The translations under genes and the position numbers were made by a program. Below the pieces are notes generated by a model that was given only the letters and a program-made list of their open reading frames with translations, was not told where the DNA came from and searched no databases. Below, one piece after another: positions 19,501-53,095 of a DNA stretch of 64,000 nt. Each line of letters opens with the position of its first letter. Within the stretch, counting starts at the first letter, position 1. This stretch comes from Brachyspira pilosicoli (GTDB lineage: Bacteria; Spirochaetota; Brachyspiria; Brachyspirales; Brachyspiraceae): the NCBI RefSeq assembly GCF_036997485.1, contig NZ_JAWLPU010000001.1:992001-1056000 (forward strand), given 5' to 3'.

Positions 19501-20271
19501 ATGGAAAAAAAGTTCTCCTTCAAAAAAGAGTTATTAAGGGCAAGCGTTTATGGTTTAATCGCCATAGCGTTTGCCAACTTAATATTCTTATCTATCTATA
19601 ACAATAATAAAATATATATCACTATAATTTTAATTGTATTAGAAATAATAACAATAATTTTTGCTTATCTATATATATCAAATATTAATAAAAGATATTT
19701 AAACTTTATTAGATACAACTCAGTATTAGAACATAATATAAAAACAACAGTTACAAAAGAGCATATTATAGAAAGGCTTAAATATTTTGGATATAGTATG
19801 TATTCTATAAACTCTTCAAGGGTTTTTATTAATATAGACGTTGTAAAAAATAAAAAATCTATAACAATATATGCCTACTATTTTCTGCTTTTGGATATAG
19901 ATAAAGACACAGAAGCAGCGCTTACAACCGTAAAAAATGAATTAAATGAAATATTAGATTTATATATAGATGATAACCAAAAATTATTTAAAACAGAAAA
20001 TGAAAAACAAAAAATATTAAAAGCAAAACTATATAATCATGCTGTATTTATTTTCTTTGGAGATAATGCTTCTGAGAGAATAATTAATATATCTAAAGAA
20101 GGCTACACTAAAGAAAAGCTTCTTAATTCTAATGCACAAATATTTTCAGTTTCGTATATACCTTCAGAAAATAAATTGTATTATGCAGAAAAAGTAGAAG
20201 ATGTCATAACAATTCAAAAGTTTCCAAAGCAGGATTTTGTTTATATAATAAAAGATATATTTTCTTTATAA
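19501..20271 (+). CDS. Uncharacterised membrane protein downstream of fliE
   Basis: A 256-residue protein with two N-terminal transmembrane helices (about 15-33 and 38-60) followed by a soluble domain of about 190 residues with mixed helix and strand. It begins 19 bases after fliE and ends 3 bases before the next gene region, so it is probably part of the flagellar operon transcript. No domain is recognised; lysine-rich and AT-rich like its neighbours. Confidence 0.65.
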   Translation: MEKKFSFKKELLRASVYGLIAIAFANLIFLSIYNNNKIYITIILIVLEIITIIFAYLYISNINKRYLNFIRYNSVLEHNIKTTVTKEHIIERLKYFGYSMYSINSSRVFINIDVVKNKKSITIYAYYFLLLDIDKDTEAALTTVKNELNEILDLYIDDNQKLFKTENEKQKILKAKLYNHAVFIFFGDNASERIINISKEGYTKEKLLNSNAQIFSVSYIPSENKLYYAEKVEDVITIQKFPKQDFVYIIKDIFSL

Positions 20272-20286
20272 TACTTGGATAATATA

Positions 20287-20832
20287 ATGAAAAAAACGAA
20301 AAACAAAAAGAAAGTTAAACAAAATAAAAAGACATATTATAATATAGGCTTTATAATTTTAATAGCAGTGTTATGTTATTTATTGTTTATGTTTTATAAC
20401 TTAAAAAATTCTTCTTTTGATATAAACAAAAAAGATAATGAAGGTCTTACAGTTTTGATGCATCTTTTATCTGATAATAATTCAAACAAAAACGAAATAA
20501 AAAAACTAATATTAGATAACAGAAAAAAAATTGATTATACATTGAAAGACAGTAACGGCAGAAATATTTTGATGTATGCTGTTTTTTATGGGGATAGTGA
20601 TATTATAAAAGATATTGCAAAGCAAATTGATAATATTAACGAAAAAGACAATGACGGAAGGACCGCTTTGCATTTAGCAGCACAATACGGCAAATATGAA
20701 GCCGTTGTATCGCTTGTAGAATTAGGAGCTGACATTAACATCAAAGACAATCTTTCATTAAAACCAATAGACATAGCAGAGTTTGAGGGCTTTGAGGATA
20801 TATATAATTATTTAGAAAGCAAAGCTGATTAG
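20287..20832 (+). CDS. Membrane-anchored ankyrin-repeat protein
   Basis: About 181 residues. A Lys-rich N-terminus is followed by one transmembrane helix (about 20-38) and then ankyrin repeats: DNEGLTVLMHLLSD, DSNGRNILMYAVFYGDSDII, DNDGRTALHLAAQYGKYEAV, and NLSLKPIDIAEFEGFEDIYN. Ankyrin repeats mediate protein binding; orientation suggests a periplasmic repeat domain. The ATG at 20287 is preferred to TTG at 20275. Last gene before a reversed A-type repeat. Confidence 0.83.
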   Translation: MKKTKNKKKVKQNKKTYYNIGFIILIAVLCYLLFMFYNLKNSSFDINKKDNEGLTVLMHLLSDNNSNKNEIKKLILDNRKKIDYTLKDSNGRNILMYAVFYGDSDIIKDIAKQIDNINEKDNDGRTALHLAAQYGKYEAVVSLVELGADINIKDNLSLKPIDIAEFEGFEDIYNYLESKAD

Positions 20833-40023: not shown

Positions 40024-40464
40024 ATGAAAGAAGAAGAGTTAAAGAAGCATATAGACATTATATACGACCATTGGTATGAAACTAATAGGTTTTATCATAT
40101 ATGGGCAAAACAGTATGGCATAACAGATTTAACTTTGTTTACACTAGGGTTAATTTATTATAATAAAGAATGCCCGCAGAATATGGTTACAGAGAAATTG
40201 TGCATACCAAAGCAAACAAGCTGTTCTCTTCTTAATGGTCTTGAGAAAAAGGGCTACATTACAAGAAAAATTAATTCCAAAGACAAAAGAAACAAAATTA
40301 TTACTCTCACCAAAAAGGGTATTAAGTTTGCCGAGCCTATATTAGAAAAACTTGAAAAACTTGATACAGATATGCTTGCTTCATTAAAAGATGAGGATAT
40401 AGTGAAGTATACAAATTGTCTAAAAGAGCTGATTAAGTTTATGGAGAATTATTCTAAAGATTGA
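40024..40464 (+). CDS. MarR family transcriptional regulator
   Basis: A 146-residue winged-helix regulator: YNKECPQNMVTEKLCIPKQT and SCSLLNGLEKKGYITRKIN form the helix-turn-helix, and SKDKRNKIITLTKKG is the wing. The N-terminal helix (HWYETNRFYHIWAKQYGIT) is the dimerisation segment. Its position directly after the NSS transporter suggests autoregulation and a link to the transported amino acid. Confidence 0.9.
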   Translation: MKEEELKKHIDIIYDHWYETNRFYHIWAKQYGITDLTLFTLGLIYYNKECPQNMVTEKLCIPKQTSCSLLNGLEKKGYITRKINSKDKRNKIITLTKKGIKFAEPILEKLEKLDTDMLASLKDEDIVKYTNCLKELIKFMENYSKD

Positions 40465-41539: not shown

Positions 41540-42050
41540 TTTTTCATATAGAAATATCAACAAAAAGTTGCAGAAATAGCAAGTGTTTTGGCTTTGTATG
41601 TTTGGAATATGTATAAAGTATGAAATAATACCAACATTTTAAACTAAACAATGTAGCCTTTTTGCTTCTTTGCGGCTGCAAAAGAAGTGAGGTGTGTACC
41701 CTAAGGGCACGCTTCGCAGGGGGCAACGCCATCACAAACAAAAAACTTAAAAAATAAATTTTTAGTATATATTGAAATAATTATTTTTTTATCAACTTTT
41801 TCCCGCGTACGAGCTGTACCACCTTGCCGCACGGTAATGCTATGCTTTAATTATAACTTCTTAGTCGTGCGGGGAAGTGCCTTTTAATGTACAATTAAAT
41901 TATAAAATTTATAATAAAAATGCAGTCCTTTTGCTTCTTTGGGCCACCAAAAGAAGTAGGGGTTTGGGGACTAGTCCCCAAAATATAAAAACAAAAATTT
42001 ATAAATTTAAAAGTTTTTATCATATGGATACGCTTTGTAGAGCTGAGTCC
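41540..42050 (-). repeat. Reversed B unit followed by reversed A unit
   Basis: B part at 41560-41790 (spacer TTTGTATGTTTGGAATATGT, CTTCTTTGCGGC/GCAAAAGAAG arms, GCTTCGC at 41711-41717, GGGGGCAACGCCATCAC head). A part at 41791-42020 with the A hairpin at 41827-41872, CTTCTTTGGG ... CAAAAGAAG arms and TTTGGGGACTAGTCCCCAAA, a perfect 20-bp palindrome at 41963-41982. A worn GGATACGCTTTG remnant reaches about 42050. Confidence 0.87.
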
Positions 42051-42071: not shown

Positions 42072-42100
42072 TTGACAAAACCGAATCACTTTAGTATAAT
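42072..42100 (+). promoter_or_regulatory. Consensus sigma-70 promoter
   Basis: TTGACA (42072-42077), exactly 17 bases, TATAAT (42095-42100): a perfect consensus. It drives the CxxCxxxCC / radical-SAM-like / Nudix operon and excludes the TTG at 42100 as a start. Confidence 0.85.
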
Positions 42101-42135: not shown

Positions 42136-42576
42136 ATGAAAGTAATACCTTCTGATAAAATTTTTAAAGATAGAAAAGAGAAAGTTACAGATAAATTATG
42201 TGCAGATTGTAATTCTTTATGCTGTCATGATTTGGTGATGGAAATATCTAAGCCTAAAAATGAAGAAGAATTAAAAACTTTGAAATGGTATCTTTATTTT
42301 AAGCATTCATTTATATTTATATATCAGGATACTTGGTACCATATGATAAGAAGTGAGTGCAGGTATTTAGATAAAAAAACTTATTTATGTACAAATTATG
42401 AGAATAGGCATGATATATGTACTAAGCACAGTCCGCCTAAATGTGAGAGATATGAAGAGTGGTATGATGTAATATTTGATGACCAGTATGAATTAGAAAA
42501 ATATGTTTATGAGAAGAAAATAATTAAAAAGAAATCTTCTAAGTCGCCTAAAAAAATAGCTAAAAAAGTAAAATAA
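42136..42576 (+). CDS. CxxCxxxCC (YkgJ-type) putative metal-chelating protein
   Basis: A 146-residue protein of the zinc/iron-chelating CxxCxxxCC family: LCADCNSLCCHDLVM near the N-terminus, then SECRYLDKKTYLCTNYENR and DICTKHSPPKCERYEEW supply the remaining cysteines. Members are thought to bind a metal cluster; biochemistry is open. The last 20 residues are Lys/Ser-rich. The ATG at 42136 lies 36 bases after the -10 box. First gene of a three-gene operon. Confidence 0.83.
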   Translation: MKVIPSDKIFKDRKEKVTDKLCADCNSLCCHDLVMEISKPKNEEELKTLKWYLYFKHSFIFIYQDTWYHMIRSECRYLDKKTYLCTNYENRHDICTKHSPPKCERYEEWYDVIFDDQYELEKYVYEKKIIKKKSSKSPKKIAKKVK

Positions 42577-42591
42577 AAAAATGTATAAGCA

Positions 42592-44052
42592 ATGAAAAAA
42601 GAAAAAATTGATAGAGTATGTATAACATATCCTCCTTTTGAATATAATAAAGGTTTTCCATTAATGTCTTTAAATAGGCAATTTCAATGGGTGAGGAATT
42701 TTACTGCTAATTACCCAATACTTTCTGCCTATGCTGCTACTTTATTAAAAAATAACGGTTATGATGTTTTTTTTATAGATACTGTTGCAAAAAAGATGGA
42801 TATAATAGATTGGCTTATACAAATGGACAATATAAACCCGCAATTAATATTTTTTGAAGCTACTACTGCTACTATAAATTATACTTGGGATACTATTGAC
42901 GCTATTAAAGATAAATATAAAAATTCTTATATAGTTTTGGCAGGCGACCATGTTACAGCATTGCCTGAAGAAAGTTTTTTAAAATCTAAAGTAGATTTTG
43001 TTATTACAGGCGGAGATTATGATGTTCTTCTTTTAAGTATTGTGAATCATATTAATAATGGAGAAAAATTAAAAGAAGGTATATATTATAGAACATCTCA
43101 AGGGAATATCAGAAATACCGGCAAATGTAAACTTGATTATCCTTTAGACCGACTTCCATTTATAGATAGAAACCTCACTAATTGGAAATTATATTCTAAA
43201 GAAAATGAATATTATAAAAAAACTCCAGCTACATTTATTATGTCAGGCCGTGGAGCTGTTTTTAACAATTATAATTGTGCTTCTTCTAATATATTATTTA
43301 ATAATGTTAGATTAAGAAACCCTATTAATGTTGTTGATGAAATAGAATATTTGCATAAAAGATATGGTATAAAAGAGTTTGTTGATGTTACTGTATCTTT
43401 TCCTATGGGAGAGTGGCTTTCATTATTTTGTCAAACTATGATAGAGAGAAAATTAAATAAAAAAGTTTATATTGATTGTTATATGTATTTTACTGATTTA
43501 GACTATCATTATTATAAAATGATGAAAAGAGCTGGATTTAAAACATTAATTGTTACTTTCCCTTCTGCCAATACCAAGACCTTAGAAAAGCTATCTCCTT
43601 CATATATAAATATAGAGTCTATGATTGAATCTATTAAAATGGCGAGAAAGGCAGGACTCTTTATAGATATGATGGTAAAGATTGGTTATCCTTGGGAGAA
43701 TGAAGATGATATTATATCTACTTTTGATGTGATAAAATATTTAATGACTAATGGTTATGTTAATACAATGAATACTTCAATTTTTGTTCCTTATCCTGGC
43801 ACTAGTATATTTAATTATTGCAGGGAGAATAATTATATTAATACTGATAATTGGTTTGAATATGATATGCGCAGCAGTGTGATGAAATTGGAAGTTGATG
43901 ATATTTTTCAGTATGTGGAATATTTTTATAATTTATCTTTTAATCCTATGTATATTTTTCATAAAATATTAAGTATTAGGGATATATATGATATTAGGCA
44001 TCATATAAACTCTTTTAGAAATGTAGTATCATCGTATATCAATAGGGAGTAA
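42592..44052 (+). CDS. Radical-SAM/B12-binding-like protein with degenerate cluster motif
   Basis: A 486-residue protein with the layout of B12-binding radical SAM enzymes: an N-terminal cobalamin-binding-like domain (about 5-165; YPPFEYNKG, YPILSAYAATLLKNNGYDV, VLAGDHVTALPEE) and a radical SAM-like TIM barrel (about 205-430; PINVVDEIEYLHKRYGIKEF, MMKRAGFKTLIVTF, GLFIDMMVKIGYPWENEDDI). Where the [4Fe-4S] motif CxxxCxxC belongs, the sequence is SGRGAVFNNYNCAS: the first two cysteines are Ala and Asn and only the third remains. No other CxxxCxxC exists. The frame is intact, so this looks like a conserved non-catalytic relative rather than a pseudogene. Between the CxxCxxxCC gene and the Nudix gene, 15 and 17 bases away. 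Confidence 0.8.
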   Translation: MKKEKIDRVCITYPPFEYNKGFPLMSLNRQFQWVRNFTANYPILSAYAATLLKNNGYDVFFIDTVAKKMDIIDWLIQMDNINPQLIFFEATTATINYTWDTIDAIKDKYKNSYIVLAGDHVTALPEESFLKSKVDFVITGGDYDVLLLSIVNHINNGEKLKEGIYYRTSQGNIRNTGKCKLDYPLDRLPFIDRNLTNWKLYSKENEYYKKTPATFIMSGRGAVFNNYNCASSNILFNNVRLRNPINVVDEIEYLHKRYGIKEFVDVTVSFPMGEWLSLFCQTMIERKLNKKVYIDCYMYFTDLDYHYYKMMKRAGFKTLIVTFPSANTKTLEKLSPSYINIESMIESIKMARKAGLFIDMMVKIGYPWENEDDIISTFDVIKYLMTNGYVNTMNTSIFVPYPGTSIFNYCRENNYINTDNWFEYDMRSSVMKLEVDDIFQYVEYFYNLSFNPMYIFHKILSIRDIYDIRHHINSFRNVVSSYINRE

Positions 44053-44069
44053 TAAAATTAAAAAATATT

Positions 44070-44564
44070 ATGACTGAGCTTTGGGACATCTATGATATAA
44101 ACAAAAATAAAAAAAACAAGCTGCATAAAAGGGGTTTGCCTTTAGATAAAAATGATTATCATATAGTTATACATGCTTGGGTGATTAATAGTAATGATGA
44201 GGTGATATTAACTAAAAGACACAGCAGCAAAAAGATATGTCCTAATATGTGGGAATGCACTGAAGGTTCTATAGTTGCGGGTGAGAGCAGTGTTGAGGGA
44301 GCTGTTAGGGAGTTAAAAGAAGAGATAGGGCTCTCTTTTAAAGTTGATGAGGCTACATTTCTTACATCGTTTATTCTTGATTTTTCTAATACTATAATTG
44401 ATTCTTATTTGTTTAAAAGAGATGTTGATATAAATGATTTAGTCTTGCAAGAAAATGAAGTTAGTGAGGTAAAAATTGTTAATGAGAGAGTTTATAGAGA
44501 GATGTGTAAAAATGGTGATATTGTTGAGTCTTTGATGTATTTTTACGATTTATACAAAAAATAG
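44070..44564 (+). CDS. Nudix hydrolase (isopentenyl-diphosphate isomerase-like)
   Basis: A 164-residue Nudix protein. The Nudix box runs GSIVAGESSVEGAVRELKEE followed by IGL, fitting Gx5Ex7REUxEExGU. The N-terminal ELWDIYDINKNKK and HKRGLPLDKNDYHIVIHAW are typical of the YfcD/IDI-like subgroup. Substrate unknown; it hydrolyses or isomerises nucleoside or prenyl diphosphates. Last gene of the operon starting at 42136. Confidence 0.9.
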   Translation: MTELWDIYDINKNKKNKLHKRGLPLDKNDYHIVIHAWVINSNDEVILTKRHSSKKICPNMWECTEGSIVAGESSVEGAVRELKEEIGLSFKVDEATFLTSFILDFSNTIIDSYLFKRDVDINDLVLQENEVSEVKIVNERVYREMCKNGDIVESLMYFYDLYKK

Positions 44565-45806: not shown

Positions 45807-47315
45807 ATGGATTGTTTTATAGGAATAGATTTAGGAACTTCATCTGTAAAAACTTTGATAATATCTCAAAATGCAGAAATACTTTCTATTTCTCAAAAAG
45901 ATTATAATTTTGACACCCCATATTTAAATTGGGCAGAACAAGATGTTGATGTGTGGTGGGATGCAGTAGTTATTACAATAAAAGATGCACTAAATCAATT
46001 AAAATCAAAGTATAATAATGTTGTAATTAAGGCTATAAGTTTTTCAGGTCAGATGCATGGTCTTGTAGCTTTAGATAAGAATGGGAATGCTATTAGAAAA
46101 TCAATAATATGGTGTGATAGCAGAACATCAAATGAAGTAAATTATATAAATGAAAAAATAGGCAAAGATAATATAATAAAAATTACTCATAGTCCATTAG
46201 CAACAGGTTTTCAAATAGTATCACTTTTGTGGATAAAAAATAATGAAAAACACAATTATGATAAAATATATAAAGTGATATTGCCTAAGGATTATATAAG
46301 ATATAAGCTTACTGGTATAATTGCTACAGATATAACAGATGCAGCTTCCACTTGTGCTTTTGATTCAAATGAAAATAAATGGTCTTATGAGATAATAAAA
46401 AAGCTTGATATGAGAAGTGATATATTTCCAGATGTATATTATCCTCATGAGGTAGCGGGAAAAGTTAGTAAAAAAGCATCGGAAGAAACTGGTTTAAATG
46501 AAGGCATTAATGTAATGTATGGTGGGGCAGACCAAGCGATGCAGGCCATAGGAAATGGAATTATAGAAACAAAAACTGCATCAATAACTATAGGCACAGG
46601 TGGTCAAATTTTTATGCCTATAGATAAAGCCGTGTATAACAACAATTCTCATACATTTAATTTTGTGATGCAAAATACTTGGTATTATTTAGGGGCGGCA
46701 TTATCATCTGGCTTAGCTTTGAAGTGGGCTAAAAATAATTTTTGTAGTAATGGAGAATCATTTTTAGATATAGATTTAAATGCCCAAAAAATAGCAGCAG
46801 GGTGTGAAGGTTTAATATTTCTTCCATATTTAGCTGGTGAAAGAACTCCTCATATGAATAGTGATGCCTCTGCTATGTTTTTGGGATTAACATTAAAGCA
46901 TACAAAATATCATATTTTAAAATCTATAATGGAAGGTGTTGTATATTCGTTAAAAGATTGTTTTTCAATATTAACAGACGATATGCATTTTAAGTGTGAT
47001 AAGCTAATAGCATCTGGTGGAGGCTCTCACAGTAAATTATGGCTTCAAATACAGGCTGATATATTAGACAAAGAAATATATGTTTCTAAAACTAAAGAAC
47101 AAGCTGCTTTAGGTGCTGCTATAACTGCTATTGTTGGAAGTGGGGTATATAGTGGATATAAAGAAGCTATAAAAGAATTAATAAAGCATGATGATAAACC
47201 AATAATACCTATAAAAGAAAATGTAAAAATATATTCAGAGTATTATCAAATATTTAAAGAGGCTTATAGGGTAAATAAGCATTTAATGTCATCGATTAGA
47301 AATATAGAACAGTAA
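45807..47315 (+). CDS. xylB: Xylulokinase (FGGY family)
   Basis: A 502-residue carbohydrate kinase: the N-terminal phosphate loop GIDLGTSSVKTLI, ISFSGQMHGLVALDKNG, IWCDSRTSNEV, PKDYIRYKLTG, GGADQAMQAIGNG, TIGTGGQIFMP and LIASGGGSHSKLWLQIQADI. This matches D-xylulokinase, which phosphorylates xylulose for the pentose phosphate pathway. No xylose isomerase or transporter is adjacent; a related pentulose is possible. Confidence 0.9.
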   Translation: MDCFIGIDLGTSSVKTLIISQNAEILSISQKDYNFDTPYLNWAEQDVDVWWDAVVITIKDALNQLKSKYNNVVIKAISFSGQMHGLVALDKNGNAIRKSIIWCDSRTSNEVNYINEKIGKDNIIKITHSPLATGFQIVSLLWIKNNEKHNYDKIYKVILPKDYIRYKLTGIIATDITDAASTCAFDSNENKWSYEIIKKLDMRSDIFPDVYYPHEVAGKVSKKASEETGLNEGINVMYGGADQAMQAIGNGIIETKTASITIGTGGQIFMPIDKAVYNNNSHTFNFVMQNTWYYLGAALSSGLALKWAKNNFCSNGESFLDIDLNAQKIAAGCEGLIFLPYLAGERTPHMNSDASAMFLGLTLKHTKYHILKSIMEGVVYSLKDCFSILTDDMHFKCDKLIASGGGSHSKLWLQIQADILDKEIYVSKTKEQAALGAAITAIVGSGVYSGYKEAIKELIKHDDKPIIPIKENVKIYSEYYQIFKEAYRVNKHLMSSIRNIEQ

Positions 47316-47418: not shown

Positions 47419-47431
47419 AATTAATATATAA

Positions 47432-47562
47432 ATCTTCGGGGCTAGGTGAAATTCCATACCGGCGGTAAAGTCCGCGAGCCTTTTTGATGTCTCTTTTATT
47501 CAAAAATGGCAGATTTGGTGCGATTCCAAAACCGACAGTTAAAGTCTGGATGGTAGAAGATG
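47432..47562 (+). ncRNA. FMN riboswitch (RFN element)
   Basis: Conserved RFN blocks are readable in order: ATCTTCGGGGCTAGGTGAAA, CATACCGGCGGTAAAGTCCG, CGAGCC, GGCAGATTTGGTGCGATTCC, AAAACCGACAGTTAAAGTCT, GGATGG and the closing GAAGAT that pairs with ATCTTC. It senses FMN and controls the ribD operon, probably by transcription attenuation with the terminator just downstream. Confidence 0.97.
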
Positions 47563-47594
47563 TTTTTAATGTAAACTACATGTCAAAAAATTAT

Positions 47595-48807: not shown

Positions 48808-48885
48808 TACTGGGGACTAGTCCCCAGACCCCTACTTCTTTTGGTGACCCAAAGAAGCAAAAGGACTGCATTTGTATTATTTTGC
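48808..48885 (+). repeat. Head-only fragment of the intergenic repeat
   Basis: CTGGGGACTAGTCCCCAG (48810-48827, perfect palindrome), then CTTCTTTTGG/CCCAAAGAAG arms with only TGA between, and AAAGGACTGCATTT. No A or B tail is present. It sits inside the riboflavin operon between ribD and ribE. Confidence 0.8.
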
Positions 48886-52671: not shown

Positions 52672-53095
52672 CTTGTTGGTATTATAGTTTATACATATTC
52701 CAAACATACAACGCTATAGTACTTGCGTTTTCGCGAAGCGTGCCCGAAGGGCGAAAACTTTTTGACGAAGTCCGCACCGCGAGAGCGACAAAAAAGTTGA
52801 TAAAAAAATAATTATTTCAATATATACTAAAAATTTATTTTTTAAGTTTTTGTTTTGTGGTGGCGTTGCCCCCACGCCCCTACTTCTTTTGCCGAATAGG
52901 CACCTACTCGGTGGTGTCCCAAAGAAGCAAAAGGACTGCATTTTTATTATAAATTTATAATTTAATTATACATTAAAATGCATTCCCCCGCACGACTAAG
53001 AAGTTATAATTAAAGCATAGCATTACCGTGCGGCAAGGTGGTACAGCTCGTACGCGGGAAAAGAACAACAAAAAGTTGATAGAAAATTATTGTTA
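52672..53095 (+). repeat. B unit followed by A unit
   Basis: B part: spacer from 52685, GCGAAGC at 52733-52739 with GCCCGAAGGGC directly after, GACGAAGTC, CAAAAAAGTTG end. A part: GTGGTGGC-GTT-GCCCCCAC head at about 52858, CTTCTTTTGCC ... CCCAAAGAAG arms, spacer, A hairpin at 52988-53033. Between ribH and the convergent dehydrogenase gene. Confidence 0.87.

Follow-up and report, generated by a model that had tools for sequence, protein, structure and literature searches.

Background

The nearest functional relatives of the intact enzyme family to which the protein described here belongs are AprD4, HpnJ, and GenD1. AprD4 (6fd2) is a catalytically active radical-SAM 1,2-diol dehydratase with an aminoglycoside sugar substrate. 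HpnJ converts a glucosamine-bearing hopanoid to a cyclitol ether (PMC12583986), and the cobalamin-dependent sugar C-methyltransferase GenD1 carries the cysteine motif Cx4Cx2C, a known variant (PMC4340712). In TokK and TsrM, one residue (W215 and E236, respectively, at equivalent places) touches both SAM and cobalamin (PMC9692996).

Our search of the literature on cysteine-less radical-SAM proteins gave nothing useful, and in the papers searched we found no description of a cluster-free B12-domain member with a paralogue, an intermediate, and a probable second loss. Papers that pair the terms pseudoenzyme and radical-SAM are few, and to go by their titles and counts, none appears to treat such a protein. 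Pseudoenzymes are well studied in kinases and proteases and, to our knowledge, hardly among radical-SAM proteins. In other families, catalytically dead paralogues control or scaffold their partners.

In the present study, we examined a window of 64,000 nucleotides from Brachyspira pilosicoli (the whole stretch of DNA that was analysed, from a genome of 2.7 Mb), in which an initial annotation had pointed to a radical-SAM-like protein with a B12 domain and without its cluster cysteines. Comparison with orthologues, an intact paralogue, and syntenic homologues suggests that it is probably a pseudoenzyme under purifying selection, derived from a duplicated B12-domain radical-SAM enzyme and now serving as a non-radical binding or partner protein.

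Results and discussion

The gene product and its predicted structure

The reading frame of 486 codons, described earlier as intact, was confirmed (Table 1). The protein has the N-terminal B12 domain of class B cobalamin-dependent radical-SAM enzymes, and its PF02310 match (33.2 bits) exceeds the Pfam cut-off; the radical-SAM match (27.9 bits against a cut-off of 29.5) falls below it and begins at profile position 21, past the cysteine loop. The nearest NCBIfam equivalogs are HpnJ (TIGR03471) and then BchE (TIGR02026), all far below cut-off; for HpnJ, the window protein reaches 103 bits and the intact B. pilosicoli paralogue 158, where 577.6 are required. Among the GTDB matches listed, the nearest relatives are B. 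pilosicoli-labelled strains (92-94% identity), and full-length identity to the Brachyspira paralogue and to the homologue in genome G073 is 44-48%.

The AlphaFold2 model of the protein is well folded, nearly as well as that of the intact paralogue (pLDDT 87 and pTM 0.89 against 91 and 0.91), and contains the (beta/alpha) barrel of PF04055 radical-SAM enzymes. AprD4 is the best structural match of both models, with Z 32.5 in each case (for the window protein, over 418 residues with an rmsd of 2.7), and OxsB and TsrM match the model of the window protein with Z 26.

Table 1. Features of the cysteine-less gene and its surroundings, in window coordinates
Feature	Position	Strand	Remarks
Promoter, consensus sigma-70 type, TTGACA-N17-TATAAT	42072..42100	+	12/12 match; before a two-gene (here three-gene) unit
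CxxCxxxCC protein, likely start ATG 42136	42136..42576	+	PF03692, E 5e-7; metal-site cysteines all kept
Putative pseudoenzyme, cluster-free B12-domain/radical-SAM, 486 aa	42592..44052	+	ORF, Pfam, alignment, AlphaFold2 model
B12-binding domain (Rossmann-like), N-terminal, residues 1-165	42592..43086	+	PF02310 at residues 45-140; mostly conserved
Radical-SAM core, residues 205-400	43204..43791	+	Alignment, AlphaFold2 pLDDT 87; fold retained but active site replaced
Former CX4CX2C loop, residues 222-230, A-VFNN-Y-NC-A	43255..43281	+	Register from 72 intact members
Nudix hydrolase, 17 bases downstream	44070..44564	+	PF00293, E 4e-13; co-located in the five-species window clade only

Loss of the cluster cysteines and of the SAM site

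The initial annotation had read the site in the register CX3CX2C and counted two of three cysteines as lost. Alignment to 72 intact family members shows that the family motif is CX4CX2C (GRDCWxxxCTFCSW); we therefore rejected the former register, in which the loss itself was rightly seen but not its extent. The cysteine positions are occupied by Ala222, Tyr227, and Ala230, and thus all three cysteines are gone. Cys229, in the context SGRG-AVFNNYNCASSN, stands at the Phe position of CTFC. It is confined to the clade of five species to which the window belongs (the window clade); the 20 other species have Ser. The three-cysteine motif of PF04055 enzymes is absent from 25/25 orthologues. In the paralogue, it reads GRDCWHH[RK]CTFCSW in all 18 Brachyspira sequences read. 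In a GTDB-wide scan that gave 546 family loci, CX4CX2C is present in every non-orthologue among the 80 best, in two of them with a longer first spacer, and these sequences span Omnitrophota, Nitrospirota, Chloroflexota, Deltaproteobacteria, archaea, and others. As had been argued, the codons GCT (222) and AAT (226) are more than one base from a Cys codon, each by two changes. The deviation is common to 25 species, and the orthologues and the dN/dS values given below rule out both sequencing error and decay in a single strain.

We then compared the residues that are at least 95% conserved in the 72 intact members. In the B12 domain, the cysteine-less Brachyspira clade keeps 32 of 43 such residues and has lost 3; the linker keeps 10/10 and the C-terminus 10/14. 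In the radical-SAM core, only 27 of 56 are kept and 23 are lost, so that the losses are concentrated there (23/56 in the core and 6/67 outside it; Fisher p 3.5e-5). Around the loop, D221, W223, F229, and W232 have gone together with C222, C227, and C230, and further core losses are D266/G268, N297/R299, G322/E324 (GLES), and K336. Alternating residues are lost on two strands (H359/T361/M363 on one and Q394/T396 on the other, with strand limits taken from the AlphaFold2 model), the pattern expected if these side chains faced the barrel lumen. E324 of GLES and R299 of NMR, SAM-binding residues in the superfamily, are replaced by Pro/His and Tyr/Asn, respectively, in 25/25 orthologues. W232, two residues past the last cysteine, is Ser in all 25.

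Some of the replacements are uniform (Y299, D359, M361, K363, N394, and S396 in 24/25 orthologues; G221 and S232 in 25/25). However, the replaced lumen positions are not significantly better conserved than the remaining variable columns of the core (11/23 versus 76/139), and a specific new ligand site is thus hypothetical.

The retention of the B12 domain, with its PF02310 match above cut-off, raises the tentative alternative, somewhat less than an even prospect, that the protein is a cobalamin-binding non-radical protein, such as a B12 sensor, a carrier, or a cluster-free cobalamin-dependent methyl carrier. The genome has three B12-domain Pfam matches (a MetH-type protein with the sequence DVHDVG, the intact paralogue, and the cysteine-less protein), and since the MetH-type protein is among them the cell probably uses cobalamin. 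Cobalamin binding by the window protein is plausible from the residues retained; against it, all 25 orthologues have Ser in place of the Trp that in TokK contacts both SAM and cobalamin (PMC9692996), and a fold of the B12 type does not by itself imply that the cofactor is bound. No cobalamin riboswitch was found in the window.

Selection and rate of evolution

The frame is open in 25/25 orthologues, and dN/dS between near species is 0.03-0.12, compared with 0.013-0.037 for the intact paralogue. The radical-SAM core and the B12 domain are equally constrained (0.090 versus 0.092). Purifying selection has maintained the gene throughout the divergence of the genus. With its catalytic residues lost and the gene under such selection, the protein has the sequence pattern of a pseudoenzyme, and the suggestion to this effect in the initial annotation is supported by the loss in all 25 orthologues and by the strong selection.

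The protein evolves about three times faster than the paralogue, and the acceleration is strong in the window clade: between G000 and G007, dN is 0.200 against 0.022 in the paralogue, about nine times higher, and dS is similar (1.02 and 0.83). This rate would suit a gene decaying on its way to loss, a reading that we consider very improbable in view of the open frames, the low dN/dS, and the kept promoter. Identity between window-clade proteins and those of near relatives is only 69%. Horizontal transfer is not favoured as the cause, since dS is similar to that of the paralogue and dN nine times higher. The window-clade sequences group with G001 and G019, a position that conflicts with the paralogue tree.

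Distribution and origin of the loss

Of the 26 Brachyspira genomes, 25 have the cysteine-less orthologue. The remaining one is a draft in 990 contigs, 88% complete, in which the match to the neighbouring gene is missing too. The intact paralogue, 44-46% identical, is present in 26/26 genomes, in one of them as an incomplete copy where a contig ends. In the tree, the cysteine-less sequences of Brachyspira are monophyletic (support 100/100) and nested inside Brachyspiraceae; just outside them lie the intact protein of G073 and the motif-bearing one of G146, from two sister genera. In both of these genomes the syntenic homologue retains CX4CX2C and lies directly downstream of the same CxxCxxxCC gene, which indicates that the operon is ancestral and that the cysteines were lost within it. 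It had been proposed that motif-bearing orthologues in close relatives would mark this as a decaying gene; inside the genus there are none, and intact syntenic homologues occur only in the sister genera. The G146 protein has the cysteines and the SAM residues, but D221G and W232S as in Brachyspira, and thus looks like an intermediate. The best explanation of these sequences is that a duplicated enzyme became a pseudoenzyme on the Brachyspira stem. No phage copies of the gene were found, and the plasmid copies of the family were only distant (<60%) relatives, none of them, among the matches listed, from Brachyspira.

A further cysteine-less protein (RYYKCNKSTNSSL) is encoded in G065, which has the same genus code as G073. 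The gene lies in the same row of neighbours, with eight shared genes including FlaA and MazG types, and the protein is 55% identical to that of G073; the CxxCxxxCC gene is missing. The tree joins G065 to the Brachyspira clade with support 80/34, and a tree constrained to place it with G073 is not rejected (p-AU 0.25). At 18 core active-site positions lost in both G065 and Brachyspira, they have no new residue in common, which favours an independent loss. The loss in G065 is probably a second event, a conclusion that draws on synteny, the genus code, the identity to G073, and the lack of a shared derived active-site residue, the tree alone being undecided. A stronger version, in which the cluster was shed twice independently in Brachyspiraceae and the barrel became a new non-radical ligand or catalytic site (with conserved Y299, D359, K363, N394, and S396) working with the CxxCxxxCC metal protein, seems to us rather unlikely.

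The same genomes bear on whether the pseudoenzyme could form a heteromer with the intact paralogue, as a regulatory subunit that controls it or serves as its scaffold. We regard this as doubtful: both copies occur in all well-assembled Brachyspira genomes and the overall fold is retained, but the two genes are unlinked, neither G073 nor G146 carries an orthologue of the intact Brachyspira copy as a separate gene, and in G065 the cysteine-less copy is the only one, so that the cysteine-less type does not in general require the paralogue.

Promoter, partner gene, and neighbours

The promoter had been called a perfect consensus, and so it proved; both hexamers are unchanged across the five species of the window clade, though the flanking sequence varies. 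Several other species have a TTGAAT/TATAAT-like site at the same place. The CxxCxxxCC gene lies directly upstream of the cysteine-less gene in 25/25 Brachyspira orthologue-bearing genomes, and its cysteine columns are invariant in the alignment, including genera with the intact enzyme. To judge from gene order, it is an ancestral partner.

It had been suggested that the protein may borrow a cluster from this neighbour; it might also share one with it, and in either case radical chemistry would continue. The strict adjacency and the conserved partner cysteines would fit such an arrangement. However, in G073 and G146 the partner gene has an intact enzyme next to it and so predates the loss, the cysteine-less gene of G065 has no partner gene, and with Glu324, Arg299, and W232 lost no SAM site remains; we consider borrowing extremely unlikely.

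The Nudix gene was likewise described as part of the unit. This holds for the window clade, where it is adjacent; in 18 other genomes it lies at a different place in the chromosome, and in three more of the genus it has no match. Outside the window clade we rejected it as a member of the unit, and a role as functional partner is not supported there.

Outside Brachyspira, the neighbours of the intact family at 51 loci are GT2 glycosyltransferases (46), a second GT2 group (33), Wzx-type polysaccharide proteins (28), and sugar epimerase/dehydratases (22). With HpnJ, AprD4, and GenD1 as the nearest functional relatives, our best guess is that the substrate of the intact enzyme is a glycan or glycolipid. 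Within Brachyspira itself the link is weak: the intact paralogue adjoins a GT2 gene in G019 and not in the other two genomes inspected.

In G007 and G019, the gene immediately before the CxxCxxxCC gene encodes a MarR-like regulator (L075, 11077-11559; L077, 11211-11804), so labelled from a reading of the sequence and not from a Pfam scan. In the window such a gene is at 40024-40464, about 1.7 kb upstream of the CxxCxxxCC gene.

Proposed history and role

In the reading that we prefer, a CX4CX2C B12-domain radical-SAM enzyme of HpnJ/BchE-like type, encoded in other phyla mostly in polysaccharide gene clusters, would have been duplicated. The copy described here keeps its B12 domain, its linker, and the fold of both domains, but has lost its three cluster cysteines and most of the barrel-lining catalytic residues, leaving a pseudoenzyme predicted to have no [4Fe-4S] cluster, no SAM cleavage, and no radical chemistry. 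It may have taken on binding, scaffolding, regulatory, or partner functions. The B12 domain or the remodelled barrel might hold an ancestral glycan-type substrate, cobalamin, or another small molecule, and the protein would have as its partner the CxxCxxxCC metal protein whose gene lies just upstream, perhaps together with the intact paralogue.

Other features of the window

An interspersed repeat core, CCTTTTGCTTCTTTG, has 7 matches in the window with at most one mismatch, where 0.02 would be expected, and occurs 26 times without a mismatch in the genome, against 0 for the reversed control. Copies are at 41658-41672, 41927-41941, 48850-48864, 52920-52934, and other places. The sequence CAAAAGAAG follows both the copy near 41.66 kb and the one near 41.93 kb, and for this reason these copies look like a small palindromic element. 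An FMN riboswitch (115 bits, 47428-47565) precedes the ribD-ribE-ribBA genes, and a xylulokinase-like gene (45807-47315) between the ScpB-like and ribD genes is absent at that place in G011.

Comparison with known systems

This system offers the ancestral state, the intact paralogue, an intact homologue in synteny, an intermediate in G146, and what is probably a second loss, so that what a radical-SAM barrel does without its cluster becomes directly testable. Cluster-free genes of this kind are likely to be named radical-SAM enzymes in annotation.

Families derived from radical-SAM proteins have already been named; a cluster-free member of a B12-domain family was not described in the papers searched. 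Spiro-SPASM (TIGR04321) and pseudo-SAM/SPASM (TIGR04347) in NCBIfam are also radical-SAM-derived; unlike the present protein they have SPASM architecture and no B12 domain, and their origin is separate. The genome of the window also encodes such a protein: a TIGR04321 member (512 bits; L190 of genome C3, about 20037-20381) that is radical-SAM-like and likewise lacks a CxxxCxxC-type motif.

TokK, TsrM, and OxsB have the same domain order and fold as the pseudoenzyme, and GenD1 shares Cx4Cx2C with the intact family and acts on a sugar (PMC4340712), but all four retain the cluster. Where TokK and TsrM have the residue that bridges SAM and cobalamin, two past the last cysteine (PMC9692996), the pseudoenzyme has Ser. 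AprD4 is alike in fold at 16% identity and, in contrast, is active. The closest likeness is to the CX4CX2C B12-domain radical-SAM family itself, with which the pseudoenzyme shares full-length homology, the two-domain fold, the B12 domain, and the linker, and from which it differs in having neither the three cluster cysteines nor most of the residues of the barrel lumen.
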